Shown one piece after another: positions 2,691 to 59,440 of a stretch of DNA of 64,000 nt. The position numbers and the translations under genes were made by a program. Source of the DNA: Chloropicon primus (taxonomy: Eukaryota > Chlorophyta > Chloropicophyceae > Chloropicales > Chloropicaceae); NCBI GenBank assembly GCA_023205875.1, contig CP060762.1, positions 248,001-312,000 of the forward strand. The letters run 5' to 3'. The notes beneath the pieces are model-generated. The model ran no database searches. It worked only from the letters and a program-made list of their open reading frames with translations, and had not been told where the DNA came from. The first letter of the stretch is position 1. Each line of letters opens with the position of its first letter.

Positions 2691-3778
2691 TCAAAGAATT
2701 TCCTCAAGGTAGTCCTTGATCTCCGACTTGCTCAGGGAGCGGAACTCGTGGTCTTTCCCGACGATGCCGACCTCAATATTATCCTCGTCCATGGCACCTT
2801 CGAAGCCTTCCTTGAGAGTCAAGAGCGCCGCACCGATGGCATCTTCGAGCAACATATCCTCAGAATACCTCTTCTCCAGGAACTCCTTGGCATCCGTCAT
2901 GTTCTTGCCAATCGCACTCGCCTTCCAAGCAAAGTACGTCCCCGAAGGATCGGCCTGGTAGAGTTGAGGGCCGTGCGAGTCGTATCCAGCGATAAGCAGG
3001 GAGACTCCAAACGGTCTGACGCCACCCGACTGGGTGAACTCCTGCATGACCGTGGCAACCTCCCTCACGAGCTGGGCCACGGGAATCCTCTCGTTGTATG
3101 TCATGAAGTACATCTGAGCTGCCTTCCTCGCCTTCCTCACGAGTATCCTCGAGTCTGGCCCCATGCCGCTGTAGATGACCCCGATCTCTGGCGTCAGCTG
3201 GACGATCTTCTTCACGCTCTCCTTGTCCACAAGAACGCTCGGAAGCTTCTTCTCCGTCGCGATGACGACGCCGTCCCTCGCCTTGATGCCGAGCGAGGTC
3301 GCCCCTTGGTTCACGGCGTTCAGGGCATGCTCTATCTGCACAAGCTTCCCTGAGGGGCTGAACGTCGTCAGAGAAAAGGAGTAAGCCTAACGATGATGAA
3401 GTTGATGTTGATAACAGTGACGACGAGAACGATGATGATGATGATGATGATGATGATGCCCAGCGAAGAAGTTGCACAAAAACAAAACGAAGAAGAAGAC
3501 GACGGTAAAGGTGTCAGCAAAGCCGCTCCTTTCGCATGGCACCGCACAAGAGTTCGCTCCCGCCAAGAACGAAGACATACAACTCGGTGGTTGTCGATCT
3601 ACGACGACAAGCGGCAGATCGATCTGTCCGATCCCTCTACACGAAGCCGCTTCTCTTTCCGCAAGAGGGAAAGGAGGATCGAAGGGTGGAGATCGAAGCC
3701 AAGCGGTGGTCGAAGGATCACCCGCCTTCCCCTCCTCCCTCGTCGCCGTCGGAGCCTCCCACTTACGCTTTCCGCCAT
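2691..3778 (-). CDS. PSMA2: 20S proteasome subunit alpha2 (PSMA2/PAB)
   Basis: Two coding exons, 3778..3767 (12 bases, MAES) and 3386..2691, joined in phase 0, give 235 residues, the normal length. The spliced N-terminus reads [19 protein letters not shown], the alpha-subunit signature that regulates the gate of the core particle. Further family landmarks are [38 protein letters not shown] and [20 protein letters not shown]. The subunit belongs to the outer alpha ring and is not catalytic. The 380-base intron has donor GTAAGT at 3766 and acceptor TTAG at 3387. The minute first exon would be missed by a simple gene finder, and the next in-frame ATG (3341) would lose the conserved N-terminus. 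A relative of the recurring 5'-intron motif lies in the intron. Confidence 0.95.
3387..3766 (-). promoter_or_regulatory. PSMA2 intron 1 with a motif resembling the recurring 5'-intron module
   Basis: The intron is bounded by two coding exons, so it is secure. On the minus strand, about 70-95 bases from the GTAAGT donor (plus positions 3671-3700), it reads TTCGATCTCCACCCTTCGAT. That resembles the ATCTC...CTTTCGAT block of the 5'UTR-intron module at other genes here, at the same distance from the donor. The rest is rich in GATGAT runs near the acceptor. Confidence 0.5.
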
Positions 3779-6332: not shown

Positions 6333-7024
6333 CGATGCTGGTGATGACGACGCTGTGGACGACGATGATGGCATCACCATCATCACTCTCCTCCTCAATT
6401 GGGTTGTTGGCCTTGGTGCCCCCTGAAGGTCTCGACCAGGGACGGTTGTGACAGGCAAAATCATTATTTTCTTGGTGACGACGACGCTGTTGTTTATGAT
6501 GATGATGACGATGATGGCATCACCATCATCACTCTCCTCCTCAATTGGGTTGTTGGCCTTGGTGCCCCCTGAAGGTCTCGACCAGGGACGGTTGTGACAG
6601 GCAAAATCATTATTTTCTTGGTGACGACGACGCTGTTGTTTATGATGATGATGACGATGATGGCATCACCATCATCACTCTCCTCCTCAATTGGGTTGTT
6701 GGCCTTGGTGCCCCCTGAAGGTCTCGACCAGGGACGGTTGTGACAGGCAAAATCATTATTTTCTTGGTGACGACGACGCTGTTGTTTATGATGATGATGA
6801 CGATGATGGCATCACCATCATCACTCTCCTCCTCAATTGGGTTGTTGGCCTTGGTGCCCCCTGAAGGTCTCGACCAGGGACGGTTGTGACAGGCAAAATC
6901 ATTATTTTCTTGGTGACGACGACGCTGTTGTTTATGATGATGATGACGATGATGGCATCACCATCATCACTCTCCTCCTCAATTGGGTTGTTGGCCTTGG
7001 TGCCCCCTGAAGGTCTCGACCAGG
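6333..7024. repeat. 146-bp tandem array built from the 3' end of the aldolase gene
   Basis: Four full units start at 6441, 6587, 6733 and 6879, each exactly 146 bases and identical as far as I can read, preceded by a diverged partial unit from about 6333. The last unit (6879-7024) contains the final 14 codons and stop of the aldolase reading frame. The other units repeat those codons and the 3' flank downstream of the gene. The period is not a multiple of three. Unique aldolase sequence resumes at 7025. Runs of GAT/GAC triplets inside the unit may have promoted slippage. Confidence 0.95.
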
Positions 7025-8079: not shown

Positions 8080-8486
8080 CGCGTCGTCTGGTTCCCCTAC
8101 TGCTCCTAATGGCAAGGACTCACACGAGATCTGAGGAGCAAAAAACGAAATCAGCCACACAAGCGAGGGAGGAAACCCAGCAACGCAAGCTCACACTCGC
8201 CTCAGCACGGCGATGGACTGTGGGCACGGCAGCAGCAGCAGCTGTGGAGAAGTATCCTGATTGGCGGTGAGAAGGAAGACGCGATGGAGGTCGAGTCAGA
8301 AACACCTGGCGCGATGACGATGATGATGACGATGACGATGGCGATGGCGATGGACGGGCCACACTACCCGCGCGCGGCGTCAAGGAGGACAAACTCAAAC
8401 TCAGGACAAAGTGCCAGGTGTCCTCCAAAAAGCAAAACGTTTGATGCCACTACGTCCCCACCCGTGGTCCAATTCCTCCGATCGAC

Positions 8487-8582
8487 GGCTCTATCGAAAG
8501 ACCAGGAGATGAAGCGTCGCGTCATGCAGTTCCCTTCGACCCAAGATCCCGTTCTACGTCCTTATCCTTGGCCTGAACTCAC
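8487..8582 (-). promoter_or_regulatory. 5'UTR-intron module of the aldolase gene
   Basis: Minus-strand donor AG/GTGAGTTC starts at 8582. About 85 bases on lies ATCTCCTGGTCTTTCGATAG (8510-8491) followed by AGCCGTCGATCGG. The spacing matches the same module at the receptor kinase, SET/MYND, tomosyn, ARPC5, MPDU1 and elongin C genes. The acceptor is not fixed; candidates lie near 8430-8410. Confidence 0.55.
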
Positions 8583-8694: not shown

Positions 8695-8980
8695 GCGATC
8701 GACTATCGGTGCCAGGGAGGCGGAGGGAGGGGAGGACGTCGTGGTATCGGGAAAGTACATCTCGCGGGCTTTCCATCGGTACCTCGCTTGACCGGTTTGT
8801 CGAGAATTGGTGCAATCGGCGGGCTCCAAAAGGGTGGCGAGTTTCCTGCGAGGGAGAGGCGTAGGGCATTACCTTTGCGATCGATTATCGGTGCCAGGGA
8901 GGCGGAGGGAGGGAGAGGCGTCGTCGTCTCGGGAAATTACATCTCGCGGGCTTTCCATCGGTACCTCGCTTGACCGGTTT
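8695..8980. repeat. direct duplication, period 182 bp, upstream of VPS72
   Basis: About 104 bases at 8695-8798 recur at 8877-8980 with a few changes. Each copy ends in ATCTCGCGGGCTTTCC, then ATCGGTACCTCGCTTGACC. A diverged copy of this last part lies on the minus strand at about 27905-27945, and a weaker one upstream of the S6 kinase. Confidence 0.9.
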
Positions 8981-9067
8981 CGTCGCGGAGGAGGATTATT
9001 GACGAGAGTTTGGATCGCTGAGGCGTAGGGGTGTTGGTTTTGTGGAGGTGGACCATACTTGACGAAG

Positions 9068-11810: not shown

Positions 11811-12030
11811 TCCCCAATCGCCGACGACGCTACGCTCCGTACGACGGTACCCGTGGCAAGTCTGGTATCAATCGAAAGCCCTCAAGACGCTCCGTCGCTT
11901 GGTCGACCTTCCCTCCCGTCTCTGTCCCTCCCCTCGTCCCTCTCGGCCCCTGTCCCCCGTCCCGTCCTCACCAACCCACTCGATTGACCTCCTTCTGGAT
12001 AAGGAAAGGATAAGGTATCGTGACGGACAG
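11811..12030. other. 5' region of ALB3
   Basis: About 220 bases with no gene, rich in pyrimidines on the plus strand, adjoining the minisatellite. It should contain the ALB3 promoter. Confidence 0.35.
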
Positions 12031-12760
12031 TTTGGTTTTGGTTTGTTCCTGAGGCGAGGAGGAAGGGGTTGAGGTTGTTGGAGAGGGAGGGGCACAGGTA
12101 GAGAGGGCTTGGAGGGGAACACATCCTTGATCTGGACTACGCTTGGCAGCTGGACTTCGTTTGGCTTGGCTTGGCTTGGCTTGGCATTTGGCATCTTGGT
12201 TTGGCTTGGTTTGGTTTGGTTTGGTTTGTTCCTGAGGCGAGGAGGAAGGGGTTGAGGTTGTTGGAGAGGGAGGGGCACAGGTAGAGAGGGCTTGGAGGGG
12301 AACACATCCTTGATCTGGACTACGCTTGGCAGCTGGACTTCGTTTGGCTTGGCTTGGCTTGGCTTGGCATTTGGCATCTTGGTTTGGCTTGGTTTGGTTT
12401 GGTTTGGTTTGTTCCTGAGGCGAGGAGGAAGGGGTTGAGGTTGTTGGAGAGGGAGGGGCACAGGTAGAGAGGGCTTGGAGGGGAACACATCCTTGATCTG
12501 GACTACGCTTGGCAGCTGGACTTCGTTTGGCTTGGCTTGGCTTGGCTTGGCATTTGGCATCTTGGTTTGGCTTGGTTTGGTTTGGTTTGGTTTGTTCCTG
12601 AGGCGAGGAGGAAGGGGTTGAGGTTGTTGGAGAGGGAGGGGCACAGGTAGAGAGGGCTTGGAGGGGAACACATCCTTGATCTGGACTACGCTTGGCAGCT
12701 GGACTTCGTTTGGCTTGGCTTGGCTTGGCTTGGCATTTGGCATTTGGCATCTTGGTTTGT
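12031..12760. repeat. 183-bp minisatellite, four units
   Basis: Units are marked by GTTCCTGAGGCGAGGAGG at 12045, 12228, 12411 and 12594, a period of exactly 183 bases and essentially identical copies. Each unit contains runs of TTGGC and TTGGT pentamers. The period equals 61 codons and the unit is free of stops in at least two minus-strand frames, so long artificial reading frames cross it. It fills the divergent promoter region between ALB3 and the GNAT gene. Confidence 0.95.
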
Positions 12761-17161: not shown

Positions 17162-17344
17162 GTGAGTTCGGGGCGGAAGGAAAGGCGGAGGGTGCGGTAG
17201 AAAGGAAAGAGGGAAGGGGTAGCGTGAATCCTCATCTCTTGCTCTTTCGAAAGAGCCCTCGCTCGAAAAGGATGGTGGCCTGAGGAGGAAGGGAAGGACT
17301 GAAAGGTGTTTTGTGGTGTGTGTTTCTTTTGTGGGAGACAGCAG
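17162..17344 (+). promoter_or_regulatory. predicted 5'UTR intron of the receptor kinase with palindromic module
   Basis: Donor AG/GTGAGTTCG at 17162 and acceptor GACAGCAG ending at 17344 give a 183-base intron, 22 bases before the ATG. At 17231-17262 it contains CTCATCTCTTGCTCTTTCG followed by AAAGAGCCCTCGCTCG. The TTCGAA centre lies about 85 bases from the donor. This is the cleanest example of the recurring module. Confidence 0.65.
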
Positions 17345-32435: not shown

Positions 32436-32617
32436 TCTCTTCCCAACGCCAATGAATCATCAAACACAGCAAACAACTTTCTCTTTCAGTTTGTTGTCCT
32501 TTCCTCAAAACGCAACCAAATCTTTCGACCGAGGGCTCTTTCGAAACACCAACTGAAGATGCTTTCCACTCACGAGCCGCCTTCCCCTTTCCCCTCATCC
32601 CCTTCACCAACACTCAC
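32436..32617 (-). promoter_or_regulatory. proximal 5'UTR-intron module of ARPC5
   Basis: Minus-strand donor AG/GTGAGTGTTGG at 32617. The core TTTCGAAAGAGCCCTCGG is centred near 32541, about 76 bases from the donor. The acceptor is uncertain, just before the ATG at 32434. Confidence 0.55.
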
Positions 32618-32840
32618 CTTTTCCCTTCTGTCTCTCTGTCATCAACAAGGGCAAACCAGCTTTGTTCAGTACGTCATTTCCTCAAAACGCAACCAAATCT
32701 TTCGACCGAGGGCTCTTTCGAAACACCAACTGAAGATGCTTTCCACTCACGAGCCGCCTTCCCCTTTGTCCTCGTCCCCCGTCATCAACACTCACCTCTT
32801 CCCTTCTGTCTCTCCTCTGGCCCTCTGTCAATCGCCGCAG
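32501..32840. repeat. direct duplication, period 177-178 bp, of an intron-like unit
   Basis: TTCCTCAAAACGCAACCAAA starts at 32501 and again at 32678, followed by near-identical sequence of more than 100 bases through GAGCCGCCTTCCCCTTT and a shared CTCACCT...CCCTTCTGTC end. Read on the minus strand, each unit begins with a GTGAGT donor (32617 and 32795) and contains the palindromic module. Confidence 0.95.
32636..32795 (-). promoter_or_regulatory. distal 5'UTR-intron module of ARPC5
   Basis: Donor AG/GTGAGTGTTG at 32795 and acceptor TTGATGACAG ending at 32636 give a 160-base intron. The 18-base segment 32635-32618 would be a mini-exon before the proximal copy's donor. The module core is centred near 32719, 76 bases from the donor. 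Confidence 0.55.
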
Positions 32841-35085: not shown

Positions 35086-35456
35086 CCTTCCCTCGGTTTT
35101 TTTTCCGTCCCTTTCCCTTTCTCCTTTGCCTGCCTCCAACCTCGAGCGAACGAAACCAAACCCTTTCAATGGTGGTACGAGTGGAAAGGTCGTGAGACAA
35201 GCTCTCCGCTGGTTCCGCTCTCCTCCCCCTTGGCGTTCCCTGCCGCTCTCTACGCCCCTCACAACAACAAGGCACGCCACGCCTCGCCGTCAAAAGTCTG
35301 CTGACCGCTCAAAATGATCATGTCACAAACCAAACCCAGGGAGAGGGTCAAGGAGGTTGCGGAAGAAGGCAGGGTTCCTCGGTGCAGCACCTCTGGAAGA
35401 GTTCGAGTGAAGTCCTAGATACGATGGATGAATTAAAGTTACACACAAGGCTTTTC
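35086..35456. other. 5' region of S6K and 3' flank of PSMB1
   Basis: No gene seen. On the minus strand around 35210-35180 is GTCTCACGACCTTTCCACTC, then GTACCACCATTG, which resembles the ATCTCGCGGGCTTTCC...GGTACC block upstream of VPS72. Confidence 0.4.
35439..35443 (-). terminator. TGTAA poly(A) signal of PSMB1
   Basis: Minus-strand TGTAAC 13 bases past the PSMB1 stop codon. Confidence 0.6.
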
Positions 35457-36640: not shown

Positions 36641-36940
36641 CAGTGATATGGAGAGCGGATGCCGAGGAGGAGGGGGGGAGGGGGGAGGTGTGGGCATGGG
36701 TGGGTGGATATTTTGTCTCTCGCTCTTTCCAAAGAGCCCTCGCTTGCCAGGAATGGCGTGGAGGAAAGGCATTGCTGGTGGTGGTGCTGGTGGGTAGTGG
36801 TGATGATGATGAGGGGGTGGACAGTGATATGGAGAGCGGATGCCGAGGAGGAGGGGGGGAGGGGGGAGGTATGGCATGGGTGGGTGGATATTTTGTCTCT
36901 CGCTCTTTCCAAAGAGCCCTCGCTTGCCAGGAATGGCGTT
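36641..36940. repeat. direct duplication, period 180-181 bp, with the palindromic motif
   Basis: About 119 bases at 36641-36759 recur at 36822-36939. Each copy has CAGTGATATGGAGAGCGGA, a GGGGGAGG run, and the plus-strand motif CTCTTTCCAAAGAGCCCTCG followed by CTTGCCAGGAATGGCG. Unlike other sites, the motif here lies antisense to the nearest downstream start (PSMB1) and has no GTGAGT donor about 80 bases before it. Confidence 0.95.
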
Positions 36941-37003
36941 GATTAAGGGCATCGGTGGTGCTGTGAGTGGAGGGGAAGGCAGGTGGTTTAGTGGTGAGAT
37001 AAA

Positions 37004-38224: not shown

Positions 38225-38722
38225 CGTCACTTGGTTGGCTCTTCCCATCCCCAAACCACGAGACGAGACCCAGAAAAAAAAAAGAATCGCAAACGTTTCA
38301 GTCTCTCCCATCCTCAACACGGCGTCATTCTCACCGAGCGAGAGCTCTATCGAAAGCTCGTGAGATGAGTCACGAGACTACGTCCTCCTCTTTCGGCATC
38401 AGCTCCGTCTCCGTGTTCGACATGCCCGCCAAACTCACCTCGTTCCTCCTTTTTCCTCCGAGGGGAAAACTGATCGGTGGTTTCCCTCCAAAAGCAAAGC
38501 GGAGGCTGGCGGCTGCGATCGGCGGAGAAGAGGGAAAGGATCGCCCCTTGGACGCGCAACACGGGAAGGGAAGGGCGGGAGAGGCTCATGCGTCGAAAGA
38601 ACATCTCGAGATCTTTCGATTGACGCCTTCCTCGTCCTTTTTGGCAACCGGAGTCGTCGGAAGGTTTCGGATCGAAGAGGTGGAGACCCGACGGCGGCTC
38701 GATCGCTTGGACTCTCAAGGTG
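38225..38722. other. divergent 5' region of MPDU1 and the plastid hydrolase
   Basis: About 500 bases without a gene. It holds the MPDU1 leader module and, on the plus strand at 38600-38630, a block GAACATCTCGAGATCTTTCG that resembles part of the module. Confidence 0.4.
38334..38438 (-). promoter_or_regulatory. 5'UTR-intron module of MPDU1
   Basis: Minus-strand donor AG/GTGAGTTTGG at 38438. About 84 bases on lies ATCTCACGAGCTTTCGATAG followed by AGCTCTCGCTCGG. The acceptor is probably in the AG-rich segment around 38240. Confidence 0.55.
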
Positions 38723-40099
38723 ATGGTTACCGTGTTGCGTCCTCAACGGGGCGGCCGTTACGTCCGCTCGAGCGGGAGGGAGATTGCTTCGCAATCGACT
38801 TGCCGCGTTCTCGTTCCGTCCACTTCGGGATGGAAAAGGAGAGCAACGAGATCGAGTTGGAGTTCTGTAGGGTTCTTGGCAGCAGCCAACACGGGTGCGA
38901 ATGCGGCGCCAGAGTCGTACAAGAGCCTCTTGGACTACGAAACGTACGAGTGGAATGGGTACAAGATCAACAGCGCGGTACGTCGATCTCTGTCTGTCTC
39001 TCTGTCTGTCCTCGGACTTCGTTTTTGTTTCACTGCGTGTGATGACCAACTTTAGATGACGAGACCGATCCATTCATTCATTCAAAAATATGAGGACAAC
39101 TCGAGGCATTTGTCTGACGCTAAGAAGGAAACGAACGAGAGCAACAGAACAACCGAAACTACCCGGTCCTGAGTTTGGTGTACTGACGTGTGGACCCTGT
39201 CCCGTCTCTTCCTCTAGGTGGGCGCGTCGAACAAGCCAGGTGCGTTGGATGTGCTCCTCGTCCACGGATTTGGGGCGTCCATAGGCCACTTCCAGAAAAC
39301 CATCATTGCGCTTTCCAGGGCGGGCCACAACGTTCACGCCTTGGACCTGCTGGGGTTCGGGAAATCGGAGAAGCCTCTTGATTACGACTACCAAATGGAA
39401 GGTTGGAGGGATCTCCTCGTGAGCTACGCCAAGGAGAGAATCTTCGCCCAAGGGAAGGGCGGCAAGCTGGTCATCATGGGCAACAGCATCGGTTCCCTGG
39501 CCAGCTTGATGGCAGCGCGGGAGCTCGTGGAGCAGTCCCTCGAGAGGAACCTGAAAGGCGTGGTCCTGCTGAACTGCGCCGGGGGGATGAACAATGCTGC
39601 CACCTTGGACGACGATTGGAGGGTGAAGCTCGCTTACCCGATATTCGCGTTGATCAATGCTTTGCTCAAGATCGAGCCGGTGGCGAGGTTTCTCTTCGGC
39701 AAGTTCAGCACCAAGGAGAACATCGAGAACGTCCTTCGACAGGTGTACCGAAACCAGGACAGCGTTGACGACGACCTCGTGGACCTGATCCACGAGCCAG
39801 CGACAACGCCCGGTGCTCTCGAGGCGTTCGTGTCCATACTGACTGGGCCGCCAGGACCCAGGCCGGAGGAGCACATGCCAACCCTCACGAAGGCAAGCGT
39901 GCCCTTGCTTGTTCTCTGGGGCTCGAGCGACCCCTTCACTCCAATTGACGGCCCGGTGGCAAAGTATTTCCTGGACACGCTGGAGCCCGCGCACGAGTTC
40001 GTATCCAAGGCCATCCTCGAGGATGTTGGCCACTGCCCGCACGACGACAGACCCGAAGCAGTGCACGGGGCACTGCTTCCGTGGCTTGAGCAGCTGTGA
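38723..40099 (+). CDS. plastid-targeted alpha/beta hydrolase
   Basis: Two exons, 38723..38977 and 39218..40099, joined in phase 0 (donor GTACGT, acceptor CCTCTAG), give 378 residues. The first 55-60 residues are rich in Arg and Ser and end FLAAANTGANA, a plausible transit peptide. The fold begins with YETYEWNGYKINSAVGAS. The oxyanion/HG motif is LLVHGFGASIGHF, the nucleophile Ser is in VIMGNSIGSLASL, the Asp in WGSSDPFTPID and the His in VGHCPHDDRPE. It resembles plant chloroplast hydrolases of the At4g36530 group and, more distantly, pheophytinase. The substrate is unknown. Confidence 0.85.
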
Positions 40100-41907: not shown

Positions 41908-42427
41908 GGTCTCCACCCTCCCAGGTCACTCGGAGCGTCAACGCAGGCAAATGAGGGATCAAACGGAAGCCCACGAGGTCTACCTTCGTTCTATGATGGT
42001 CCCGTCGATCAAAACACTCGATATCGTCGCCAAATTCTCGCCCAAAGTCGACAGCAGCCTCCGCGTCCTCTGCGTCCTGCTCTCTCTCTTCTCTGCAGCC
42101 GCCAGGTTCGGCCCGAAACAAATTCAACACTACGAGAGGAGAATTTGCTATTAGATTTGAAGTTCAAATGTGAAGTAGGAAAATCAAAATCCTCGCTTCT
42201 CGAGAGAGGCTGAGGAGGGCGAGAGAGAGGAGGTCTATGACGGGGTGTGGCCGACGCGTTTGGCGTCGAGAGGGGAGGACGGCTTGATAAAACGAAGCGT
42301 CTCTTCGAGATCTTTCCGTAGACCTATCACATGCCCAGCTTTGAGGTTTCCTCGGTCGAGTGTCTTGCGATGATGGTGGAAGTGAACGGAATGAGGCTCC
42401 GACTCCAGCCTTGTGTGGCGCGTGGAG
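41661..42427. other. 5' region of GRWD1 and first part of the SET/MYND leader
   Basis: No secure gene. A (CT)n run lies at 41876-41904. One ATG frame, 41952..42154 plus, encodes 67 residues with a hydrophobic middle (LRVLCVLLSLFSAAARFG) but no family match, so I do not annotate it. One member of a dispersed 74-bp direct repeat lies at 42244-42317. Confidence 0.4.
42244..42317 (+). repeat. dispersed 74-bp repeat, copy 1
   Basis: GTGTGGCCGACGCGTTTGG, CGTCGAGAGGGGAGGACGGC and GAAGCGTCTCTTCGAGATCT in order. A second copy with about five changes is at 44479-44552, same orientation. Each lies 110-185 bases before a GTGAGT donor of a plus-strand gene. Confidence 0.9.
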
Positions 42428-42595
42428 GTGAGTTTGGACCGAGTATGAGGGCAAGAGGAGGGCGAAGTGACGATTTCAGATTCGATATCTCCTCCTCTTT
42501 CGAAAGAGCCCGCGATCGAAGAGAACAGAGCTCTGGTGAGGACTTGAGAGACTGAGACGTCGTCCTTTCCCCACTGGTTTTGGTTGTTATGGCAG
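42428..42595 (+). promoter_or_regulatory. predicted 5'UTR intron of the SET/MYND gene with palindromic module
   Basis: Donor GAG/GTGAGTTTGG at 42428 and acceptor GTTATGGCAG ending at 42595 give 168 bases. The core CTCTTTCGAAAGAGCCCGCG begins at 42495, 73 bases from the donor to its centre. A second, weaker unit follows: GTGAGGGCG at 42613, and CTCTGAAGAGCACTCGCTTG about 65 bases later, suggesting an older tandem copy. Confidence 0.55.
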
Positions 42596-43015
42596 GTACA
42601 CAGGCGGGTGAGGGCGACGAGGCAGGGGTCTGAGAGGGATTGAGGAGGCGTGGATGAAAGGATCGTGATGTAATCTCTCTGAAGAGCACTCGCTTGGGAT
42701 GACTTCTGCCCTGGTGAAGGTTTTGAGAGTCTGAAACAAGGTTGGTCTCTGTGTCCCTTACTCTTGTCTGTCGCGGTGCACTGGTGGTGGCCGACCTGCT
42801 GAACCTAGGAAGGCCAAGTGGCCCTTGGATTGGCTTCGCGTTGTCGAGGAGAGAGGCCACCAAGCCAGCTCGCCCATCACCTGCCTGTACCTTGGCCTGA
42901 AACACAAACTTGTATCAAACTTGTATCGATATAAGAGAGAGTGGGTCGAGAGCAGCCAGGTGTTGAGGCCTCGCGGTGCAGCAGAGCTCAAGTGGGTACC
43001 GGCGATGAGCTAGCC
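42596..43015. other. remaining leader of the SET/MYND gene
   Basis: No gene seen. It contains the possible second intron-like unit from 42613 and ends with the presumed 5'UTR directly before ATG 43016. Confidence 0.35.
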
Positions 43016-44478: not shown

Positions 44479-44552
44479 GTGTGGCCGACGAGTTTGGCGT
44501 CGAGAGGGGAGGGCGGCTTGATAAAAGGAAGCGTCTCTTCGAGATCTTTTCA
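44479..44552 (+). repeat. dispersed 74-bp repeat, copy 2
   Basis: Same order of blocks as 42244-42317. The repeat is followed by TTTTCAGCGGTACCC, which again recalls the GGTACC block upstream of VPS72. Confidence 0.9.
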
Positions 44553-44641
44553 GCGGTACCCAACATCGAGGGATTTGACCTCTTTCGTGTCACACGACCA
44601 GGGAGATCACTCCACCCGGAGGGAGGGGAGCACGAGCAAGG

Positions 44642-44808
44642 TGAGTTCGCGGTGGTTTTCGACGGGGAGGACGGGTGACAAGGCAGCGTGCGGAGGCACA
44701 GGCGAAAGGATCACCTCCTCCTCTTTCCAACGACCCGCCGCTGGAACGAGTTGCGAAGGTATCGAGGAAGTTCTGACTTGCATGATGGTTTGTCCTGCTC
44801 GCTCGCAG
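44642..44808 (+). promoter_or_regulatory. predicted 5'UTR intron of the tomosyn gene with module
   Basis: Donor CAAG/GTGAGTTCG at 44642 and acceptor GCTCGCTCGCAG ending at 44808 give 167 bases, 15 bases before ATG 44824. A diverged module, CCTCCTCTTTCCAACGACCC, lies about 82 bases from the donor. Confidence 0.6.
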
Positions 44809-50237: not shown

Positions 50238-50577
50238 ATCATTATTATTTTGTGCACACAATCAATCAATCGCTCCCTCACTCATTCAGAGAGAGAGAGA
50301 GGGAGGGAGAGAGAGATCCTCTCCCCATTGCCTCCGTCACTCACCTTCATCCATCCATCACCTTTGCCCCTTTACCCATCAAGTGAGGGCTCTTTGGAAC
50401 GAAGGAGAGCAAGCCATGGAGGAAGGGCAAGAGATCAAAGAGACAGTCACACCACCACCCCTTTGCCTCCATCACCATCACCACCATGGATCGCCCATCA
50501 CATCACAATGTCCTCCTTCACTTCTTCAGTTGCACAGAAGCGGAGGCGGAGGAGGCTGGAGGCTGGAGGCGAAGAAG
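50238..50577. other. region between the amino-acid transporter and the nucleosidase
   Basis: No gene. A GA-rich run lies at 50288-50317. GTGAGGGCTCTTTGGAACG at 50381 is a half-match to the palindromic motif without a donor at the usual distance. An in-frame ATG at 50416 would lengthen the nucleosidase by 54 low-complexity residues including six consecutive His. Confidence 0.4.
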
Positions 50578-52002: not shown

Positions 52003-52769
52003 CCTAACTGACTTCTCAAGAGGCAGAGAGTGAGTCCAACGAAAGCAACGAAGAACGATTCTAGACAAGCGACGTTACGAGGAGGATCCCAATCTGCCGC
52101 CAGCTCCTGCGACTGGAAAGCAAAAGGAGGACGCCGAGTTAGGTGACGAGGGCAAAAAGATGGCTGAAGAATACACACAGGCCCAAGCCCAAGCCCAAGA
52201 AGGATTCTTGTCCAATCCCCCGTCCCCTCGCTCGAATGAGGGGTCGACGGAAAGAGAAAGACCCCCCCTTTCGTTCTGCAGACCTCTCCGGTGCCAAAAC
52301 TTCCCCCAACTCACCTCTCTTCTCCTCGTCCTCGAGCTTCAAACCAAAACCAACCTTGCGAGAGCAAACCCACACGACGTTTCAGTTCCTAAAATCCTCA
52401 AAACTCCGCCATTCCCTTCGAGGGACGGCTCTTCGGAAAGAACGCGAGACGACGCTTCGATCCATTGCATCCCTCCGTCACGACACGCTCTCCCTCGTCG
52501 CACACTCCACTTACCCGCTCGCTCTCTGGCTCCGGCTCTGATCGATTTTTGTATTTTGTTTGGTCAACTGGCTTGGCTTGGTTGAGAGAGCGACACGATC
52601 GGAGCGGCGGTGGCAGAGCGAGGCGGGAGAGGGAGGAAAGAGGGAAGGGAAGCGATCGATCTCATCGTTCGTTTGATCGGTACCGATCGATCTATAGGCT
52701 TCCACGCGATCTTTCGATCGGTGTGCGCCTTGTTCAGGTTGGATCTTTATAGGCAACCATCTCAAGGTG
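52003..52769. other. divergent 5' region of elongin C and COX11
   Basis: No secure gene. It holds the elongin C leader with its module and a cluster of GATC palindromes at 52654-52720 (for example GATCGGTACCGATCGATC) near the COX11 side. Confidence 0.45.
52427..52514 (-). promoter_or_regulatory. 5'UTR-intron module of elongin C
   Basis: Minus-strand donor CGG/GTAAGTGG at 52514. About 78 bases on lies GTCTCGCGTTCTTTCCGAAG followed by AGCCGTCCCTCG. A plausible acceptor, CTCGCAAG, lies near 52357. Confidence 0.5.
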
Positions 52770-58641: not shown

Positions 58642-59440
58642 TCGAACCTTTTCGGTCGAAGCGAAGCAGGAGCCAAGGTGGTCACACGATTACGATGAGG
58701 AGGACAGAGAGAGAGAGAGGATAGCCAGCAGCAAGGGATCCATCCCTTGGTGTGGTTGAGGTTGAGGTTTGCGCAACGACAAGAAGAAGCAAGCTCGATC
58801 ACAACATAAAGAGGCGAGGGAGGAGGATGCAGGGGCACTGGGCCGTGGCCAATCGACGACGATCTGCGTGCCAAAGAGAGGACCCCCCGAGGGTGTGGCC
58901 AAGCGAGCGGGAGTATCCAACAAAAGGTTGAACGTTCATCACCCTCACCAAAGAGAGAAAGAGAGAGAGAATGAGAAAGAGAGAGGGAGGACTCGACATT
59001 ACCCAGGGTAACCAGTGTCCAAGTGTGCAAGAAAACAAGGCAGGATGGAGAAAGGTCGTCGGCTGTGGTCCATGGTCCTCCTCCTCCTCCTCGTGCCGCT
59101 CCGTTGCTCCAGGTTTCGGGTTTCGGGTTCCTCGTTTTTCGAGTGCTTGGATGCTTTGCACGGAGATCCTCGCGCCGCATTTAGAGCCGCTCGTCCTCAT
59201 TGGCTCTCGAAGAGCCACCGCGCGCCAACCGTGAGACTCTTGGTCGGTCAACCTTCGTGGTCGTCCTTCCTCCTCGTCGCGAAACCAATCGCTCGCTTGA
59301 GATCGAAGCGTCTGCTCGGGACCTTTCGATCAACCCATTGCTCGGTCCGTGCATCGCAGCGCGCTCGAGCCAAGCCCACGGCCGGTGGTTTTGAATCAAA
59401 GGCATCGCGGTGACGTGTCTGCCATTGCAAACTGCAATTG

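Follow-up and report, generated by a model that had tools for sequence, protein, structure and literature searches.

An oriented element in gene leaders of Chloropicon primus that may encode a positioned nucleosome

Gene leaders of Chloropicon primus carry an oriented element of about 70 bp, built on CTTTC, with 56 copies in 264 kb of sequence and no control matches at the cut-offs used. An earlier note had described a splice donor followed by a palindrome upstream of seven genes in the window (the whole analysed stretch of 64,000 nucleotides, C9:248001-312000); that observation is real, and larger than first described. The existence of the element, its predominant sense orientation, its placement in leaders and its spacing are firm. 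It lies mostly in the 5' leaders of genes, mostly in the sense direction and some 130 bp inside the putative transcription start, and it is often repeated about 180 bases further on, which suggests that the DNA itself may mark the sites of first nucleosomes. We give an even chance to the reading that the module is a DNA-level, oriented leader element encoding one positioned nucleosome.

The green alga Chloropicon primus RCC138 belongs to the picoplankton; 8,683 genes are predicted in its genome, with introns averaging 0.54 per gene and 152 bp in length (PMC12301720). The assembly comprises 17,584,162 bases in 20 contigs, of which C1 measures 1,855,637 bases. The sample consisted of the window and C9:1-200000, i.e. 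264 kb in two pieces. A position matrix, seeded with the word from the earlier note, was iterated on this sample, and its sites were merged with those of a profile HMM (nhmmer) into a list of 56 copies, 22 of which lie in the window (Table 1). Order-3 Markov sequence and the reversed sequence served as controls for the matrix. The claim that the repeat is non-random is borne out by both models. At a score of at least 12 the matrix found 53 sites in the 264 kb and none in either control, and at a score of 8 it found 56 sites against one in Markov sequence and none in reversed sequence. With the HMM, 55 sites reached at least 12 bits, against zero control matches; five control matches appeared at 8 bits or more, and none at 10 or more. 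The HMM scores show a gap: 55 sites score at least 14 bits, the next two score 10.6 bits and are the antisense reading of both ARPC5 copies, and the remainder lie at 9.7 bits or below. The word CTTTCGAAAGAG, with up to two mismatches, had 27 matches against 9.9 expected (maximum among 100 shuffles 21).

Table 1. Copies of the leader element in the window, with the candidate donor of the kinase leader. The element core is -26 to +46 around CTTTC.
Feature	Position	Strand	Remarks
Core, aldolase leader	8453..8525	-	donor GTGAGT at 8582; matrix, HMM
Core, YL1 leader, tandem first, divergent to aldolase copy	8744..8816	+	no donor-like hexamer at 66-92 bp
Core, YL1 leader, tandem second, 182 bp on	8926..8998	+	matrix
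Core, 60KD_IMP (OXA1-type) leader	11831..11903	-	no donor-like hexamer at 66-92 bp
Candidate splice donor GTGAGT, 82 bp before CTTTC, kinase leader	17162..17167	+	use predicted
Core, receptor-type kinase leader	17219..17291	+	matrix 85, nhmmer 40.4 bits
Core, ARPC5 leader, tandem second	32500..32572	-	donor GTGAGT at 32617
Core, ARPC5 leader, tandem first (177 bp)	32677..32749	-	donor GTGAGT at 32795
Core, leader of protein kinase with Pkinase_C tail	35141..35213	-	matrix
Core, tandem pair first (180 bp); adjoining predicted coding segments on opposite strand	36700..36772	+	
Core, tandem pair second (mate of 36700)	36880..36952	+	matrix
Core, PQ-loop (MPDU1-type) leader	38309..38381	-	donor GTGAGT at 38438
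Core, probable alpha/beta hydrolase leader, divergent to 38355 (259 bp)	38588..38660	+	matrix
Core, RBBP4/WD40-type leader	41922..41994	-	matrix
Core, SET/MYND leader, first of three	42287..42359	+	matrix
Core, SET/MYND leader, second of three (185 bp)	42472..42544	+	donor GTGAGT at 42428
Core, SET/MYND leader, third of three (178 bp)	42650..42722	+	matrix
Core, tomosyn-type leader, first of two	44521..44593	+	matrix
Core, tomosyn-type leader, second of two (177 bp)	44698..44770	+	donor GTGAGT at 44641
Core, antisense to adjoining predicted coding segments	50354..50426	-	weak: matrix 10.9, nhmmer 21.1
Core, elongin-C-type leader, second copy (186 bp)	52207..52279	-	matrix
Core, elongin-C-type leader, first copy	52393..52465	-	donor GTAAGT at 52514, 74 bp before CTTTC
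Core, 172 bp before Cyt-b5/fatty acid desaturase gene	59298..59370	+	HMM 18.4 bits; missed by matrix

Conserved positions span about -26 to +46 around CTTTC; many positions are near background in the matrix. CTTTC itself is nearly invariant (TTTC 93-95% per base), and the right half of the palindrome is variable, occurring as GAAAG, CAAAG, GATTG, GTTTG or CATCG. The palindrome is one form of the core, optional and often broken. CG methylation was considered as the key to the element, but the core's CG shows only partial conservation (G 58%, C 38% at that place), and the idea was dropped for this reason.

The pattern TCTCNNNNNCTTTCNNNNGA has 1,004 matches in the genome, against 30 for the reversed pattern. 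It captures 20 of the 56 sample copies plus three other sites, which scales to about 2,400 copies genome-wide; if the density in the sample is extrapolated instead, the figure is about 3,700, probably too many because some regions are nearly empty of the element. We estimate 2,400-3,700 copies. On C1, positions 0.085-1.02 Mb form an element desert with two TCTCNNNNNCTTTCNNNNGA matches against 36 beyond it; a neutral pattern matched 34 times inside this desert and 30 times beyond it, so the stretch is readable. Further deserts on C2 (0.89-1.77 Mb) and C3 (0.79-1.25 Mb) are less secure, as the neutral matches listed reach only early C2. A subfamily marked by CTTTCCAAAGAACCCTCGCTTGATGGGG and close forms is very similar by eye at unlinked places and partly in tandem (C13:443021-443564, C18:26175-26347, C9:145843), which suggests recent dispersal. 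A 23-base form had no exact match among IMG/VR viral contigs, where this genome or its near kin may be absent.

All eight donors reported for the seven genes are present, although the one placed at 44642 was off by one (GTGAGT starts at 44641), and each is followed in the sense direction by a model-scored element, with CTTTC 69-82 bases after the donor G. Pfam agrees with the gene names (kinase, SET/MYND, aldolase, ARPC5, PQ-loop of MPDU1 type, Skp1/elongin-C type), and the tomosyn-type name is in line with a synaptobrevin match and a weak WD40 match. A relative of the block proposed for the PSMA2 intron was not recovered: GTAAGT, a good donor, is present at 3766 (minus strand), but the 120 best HMM matches include none between window positions 2758 and 6007. 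The seven genes stand, but 14 more copies in the window had been missed, 11 of them lacking a donor-like hexamer at 66-92 bp, as had the tandem spacing of about 180 bp, the divergent one of about 260 bp and the optional nature of the palindrome. The notion of a fixed donor-plus-palindrome unit has to be given up, since 40 of the 56 copies have no donor-like hexamer at that distance and the palindrome is so often broken.

Orientation was described correctly. GTGAGT precedes the core by 66-91 bp at 178 places genome-wide in the sense and 47 in the antisense reading; over the stretch of the 100 listed sense places there are 35 antisense ones, but 29 coincide with a sense place at a palindromic site and six remain. 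Over these 100 listed places the distance from GTGAGT to CTTTC is bimodal, with peaks at 82 bp (20 listed places) and 71 bp: 18 fall at 69-73, none at 74-77, 70 at 78-85 and 12 at 86-91. This search covered GTGAGT at 66-91 bp; other donor hexamers spread more widely (66-92), and the GTAAGT at 52514 in the window, at 74 bp, falls within the GTGAGT gap. A donor-like hexamer at 66-92 bp was found for 16 of the 56 sampled copies, a few of these hexamers being probably spurious. The supposedly constant donor spacing is therefore a clustered distance where a donor is present, but the donor is optional and present in a minority. Those present may be used in splicing.

The position upstream of coding starts is supported. 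Fifty-five copies were compared with coding segments from a home-made prediction: 33 follow an opposite-strand segment and precede a same-strand one, 13 have same-strand segments on both sides, three lie inside a same-strand predicted segment and six do not fit, among them the copy in the aldolase leader, which is separated from its gene by a short segment that is probably spurious. For 46 of the 55 the next downstream coding segment is on the same strand. In a survey of gene starts the element occurred at 30 of 101 usable starts, more often at divergent (25/62) than at tandem ones (5/39; Fisher p 0.0036). We use the strongest pyrimidine-to-purine switch as a stand-in for the putative transcription start; in 24 of these 30 genes it precedes the 5'-most element by 97-158 bp. 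The element is missing from 54 of the 81 gene starts that have at least 350 bp of upstream space and is therefore not required; the same count speaks against a universal +1 signal limited by leader space alone. Genes with and without the element did not differ significantly in leader and gap lengths (p 0.11 and 0.10), nor in codon score and GC3 as expression proxies (p 0.09 and 0.26).

Spacing was counted with the strict core CTTTCSAWHGA, which captures 28 of the 56 sample copies and with which palindromic pairs are countable on both strands. Same-strand pairs, measured start to start, number 180 at 166-196 bp, against 14 at 135-165 bp, 17 at 197-227 bp and zero in the control; the mean is 180.7 bp (SD 5.6; 88 distinct pairs among 100 listed places). 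Divergent copies cluster near 260 bp, with 69 pairs at a gap of 240-270 bp, nine at 209-239 bp and 30 at 271-301 bp. Helical quantisation of the spacings was not significant for 88 listed tandem pairs (p 0.11) or 89 listed divergent pairs (p 0.90). Tandem pairs lacking a donor have the same spacing as those with one and, since donorless copies also keep the helical phase described below, the view that a splice donor is part of the module is not supported.

Helical phase was examined in 79 non-redundant copies (45 from the contiguous sample and 34 locus copies; 17 of 96 with similar flanks were left out), 62 of which are donorless. Between -90 and -30, beyond the strongly conserved core, A+T shows a 10.5-bp period, both in the full set of 79 and in the 62 donorless copies; in the full set the phase was not significant at -230 to -130, +50 to +130 (p 0.23) and +130 to +230. 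Of the 42-bp windows with centres between -200 and +200, those at -80 to -30, 0 and +20 to +60 are alone in lying above every one of the 200 jittered nulls; -90, +10 and +110 pass the 95% point. The phase has two lobes (-80 to -30 and +20 to +60) and a weaker point at 0, with a minimum near -20 to -10, the right-hand lobe being partly the conserved motif itself. Single-base tests in some outer windows gave uncorrected p values of 0.008-0.03, so the confinement is imperfect.

In the canonical nucleosome register A+T falls at half-integer superhelix locations (PMC4081404). A score rewarding A+T at half-integer and G+C at integer locations peaked for a dyad at -10, where it reached 0.054; the maximum in block-shuffled sequence, the null, was 0.019 +/- 0.003. 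The 62 donorless copies and the 34 locus copies likewise peaked at -10, and two sequence classes gave -10 and -9; in the 45 contiguous-sample copies the best dyad was +1, with -10 close behind. With the conserved core masked, the best dyad was -9 (0.028 against 0.010 +/- 0.003). The dyad is resolved to about +/-10-20 bp, with weaker maxima every 10 bp, and the 11 later tandem copies alone scored 0.061, not clearly above their null maximum of 0.067. Within these limits, A+T periodicity of about 10 bp and the canonical register over about 147 bp, the marks of nucleosome positioning, were both found. Residual homology among copied cassettes could contribute to the phase despite the removal of similar flanks. 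With a dyad at -10, the donor peaks at 82 and 71 bp lie about 73 and 62 bp before it, and would correspond to the nucleosome edge and one turn inside.

The element resembles nucleosome positioning sequences, with their 10-bp AA/TT/GC periodicity (PMC4081404), in its helical A+T phase, canonical register and extent of about one nucleosome length. It is unlike them in having a specific, oriented motif near the dyad (best about 40 bits), in its reuse in thousands of leaders and in its tandem arrangement at nucleosome-repeat spacing. Nucleosome affinity alone requires neither a specific directional motif nor a single orientation, which counts against the nucleosome reading. A nucleosome acting as the ruler is the best fit to spacing and helical register together. 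We infer that the phase reflects a real nucleosome, the +1 nucleosome, and that the core is read by a histone complex, a remodeller or some other factor.

On this reading, in roughly a third of the genes on the sampled chromosome, and most frequently at divergent promoters, the first nucleosome downstream of the start would sit on a cassette of about 180-220 bp. The A+T pattern of the cassette would set the rotational phase, and the directional conserved core (CTTTC and its neighbours) would lie at or just past the dyad. In longer leaders a second or third cassette would follow, each after one nucleosome repeat (about 181 bp). A minority of cassettes would have a splice donor at the upstream nucleosome edge, and the predicted leader intron would thereby measure about one nucleosome repeat. 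We put forward more tentatively, as a possibility, that leaders are composed of copyable, oriented cassettes of nucleosome length, each specifying one nucleosome, counted inward from the transcription start, that they grew by the addition of such cassettes, and that donors at the nucleosome edge let an intron be removed as one repeat.

The question whether nucleosome positions at the starts of genes are written in the DNA sequence is long-standing, and thousands of aligned, oriented copies with a built-in register would provide a natural, testable case in a small genome with cultured strains. The proposal ties the size of leader introns, and where their borders fall, to the length of the nucleosome repeat, and bears on the origin of nucleosome-sized introns in picoalgae; on the more tentative reading, if true, promoter chromatin and leader splicing would share one DNA-encoded ruler. 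Among the open-licence papers listed on intron-mediated enhancement, promoter motifs, leaders, nucleosome repeat length, introners, and Chloropicon introns and promoters, we recognised no description of the leader element. The stems 'splic' and 'UTR' are absent from the main texts of PMC12301720 and of the 2019 genome paper (PMC6731263), and 'motif' from the main text of the former.

The strongest alternative, which we hold to be possible though doubtful, is that a lineage-specific transcription or architectural factor binds the core about 130 bp downstream of the start, as a downstream promoter element or enhancer, and that nucleosomes take their phase from it, or else that the complex itself leaves the helical pattern as a footprint. 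The strongly uneven conservation with its directional information, the preference for divergent promoters, the occurrence with or without a donor and the lack of conserved RNA structure would all suit such a factor. It accounts less well for an A+T phase that extends over about one nucleosome length, has a central minimum and fits the register with the core masked, or for a tandem spacing typical of the nucleosome repeat; with a factor bound in the linker, moreover, the phase should restart beside the core and not run through it. Downstream core promoter elements lie at a roughly fixed distance past the start (about +30) and depend on orientation. The leader element is alike in its orientation dependence and its roughly fixed distance from the putative start, and unlike them in lying at about +130 and being repeated about every 181 bp.

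Rather improbable, in our view, is that the cassettes are remnants of an introner-like or dispersed family in leaders, kept by drift and local duplication and lacking a chromatin role. Whole units have indeed been copied, their flanks being otherwise dissimilar in the stretches compared: loci L024 and L025, each of 3 kb, share 219 bp at 90% identity as their single blastn match, and C9 194478-194702 and 196508-196732 share 225 bp at 99%, again the single match in stretches of about 2 kb. The 71 bp ending at the TTT of the 44521 copy are 96% identical to the same part at 42313, i.e. between a tomosyn-type and a SET/MYND leader, while C9 183203 and 184555 lie inside a longer duplication of about 1.3 kb that extends beyond the leader. 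Among 16 adjacent tandem pairs, five show near-identity of the core or of the upstream flank, and some others resemble each other no more than randomly paired copies do. The unit size is near the nucleosome repeat, and some introners of Micromonas and Aureococcus are reported to prefer nucleosome linkers (PMC9860276). Against such a family stand the largely single orientation, the 40 of 56 copies lacking a donor-like hexamer at 66-92 bp, and conservation at particular positions instead of an even decay. Judged by distances and gene identities, none of the 13 copies between same-strand segments was recognised as intronic, about four of the 55 being ambiguous (C9 36783, 62414 and 89774; window 35187). 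No convincing target duplications (by script) or terminal repeats (by eye) were found at four copied units, where the short flanking repeats are purine-rich; some introner families are reported to lack such features (PMC9860276). Near end-to-end similarity, as expected of introners, is confined to a few whole-unit copies; random pairs had a mean identity of 0.51 in the core and 0.36 and 0.30 in the flanks.

An introner in the strict sense is unlikely, as no copy was recognised in a coding-sequence intron and neither target duplications nor terminal repeats were convincing at the copied units checked. From the earlier suggestion of an introner remnant, the spread into leaders survives, since whole units were copied between unrelated leaders. 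The likeness to the introners described in PMC9860276 lies in the high copy number, the size of about an intron or nucleosome, the picoplanktonic algal host, the donor in some copies and the copying of units between genes. The leader element is unlike them in being restricted to leaders as far as seen, mostly in one orientation and mostly donorless, with the core alone conserved and no convincing TSD or TIR at the units examined.

An RNA element, including the splicing element suggested earlier, is unlikely, and a signal acting in the nascent leader RNA, be it a structured RNA, a splicing enhancer or a translation control, is very unlikely: sense orientation and clustered donor distances would favour it, but RNAalifold on 79 copies gave zero consensus pairs and hence no conserved RNA structure, copies occur with and without a donor, the DNA spacings of 181 bp and about 260 bp are left unexplained, and SNOR75, which alone among Rfam families reaches its gathering score in the window, lies away from the elements. 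An RNA hairpin formed by the palindrome was rejected on the zero consensus pairs together with the variable right half. Rfam searches of loci L018, L023 and L024 to E 0.1 gave 25 matches, all in L024 1525-1764 and all below gathering scores, and ARAGORN found no tRNA-like element in the window. Plant intron-mediated enhancement motifs are short, and the leader element is much longer. It resembles first-intron enhancement in Chlamydomonas (PMC7419008) in its promoter-proximal, sense position in a presumably transcribed region, and differs in that 40 of 56 copies are without a donor-like hexamer at 66-92 bp.

Three further features of the window were observed. The SNOR75 match is a C/D-box snoRNA (60.9 bits) at 39034-39122 on the plus strand, perhaps in an intron of the alpha/beta hydrolase gene. 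A tandem array of a 183-bp unit (12030-12747; 3.9 copies at 99%) lies upstream of the element-bearing 60KD_IMP leader; its period is near the element spacing and it contains no scored elements, and the unit had no match among plasmid records, where this genome or its near kin may be absent. Past the 3' end of the aldolase gene, a 146-bp unit forms a second tandem array (6361-7024) of 4.5 copies at 100% identity.
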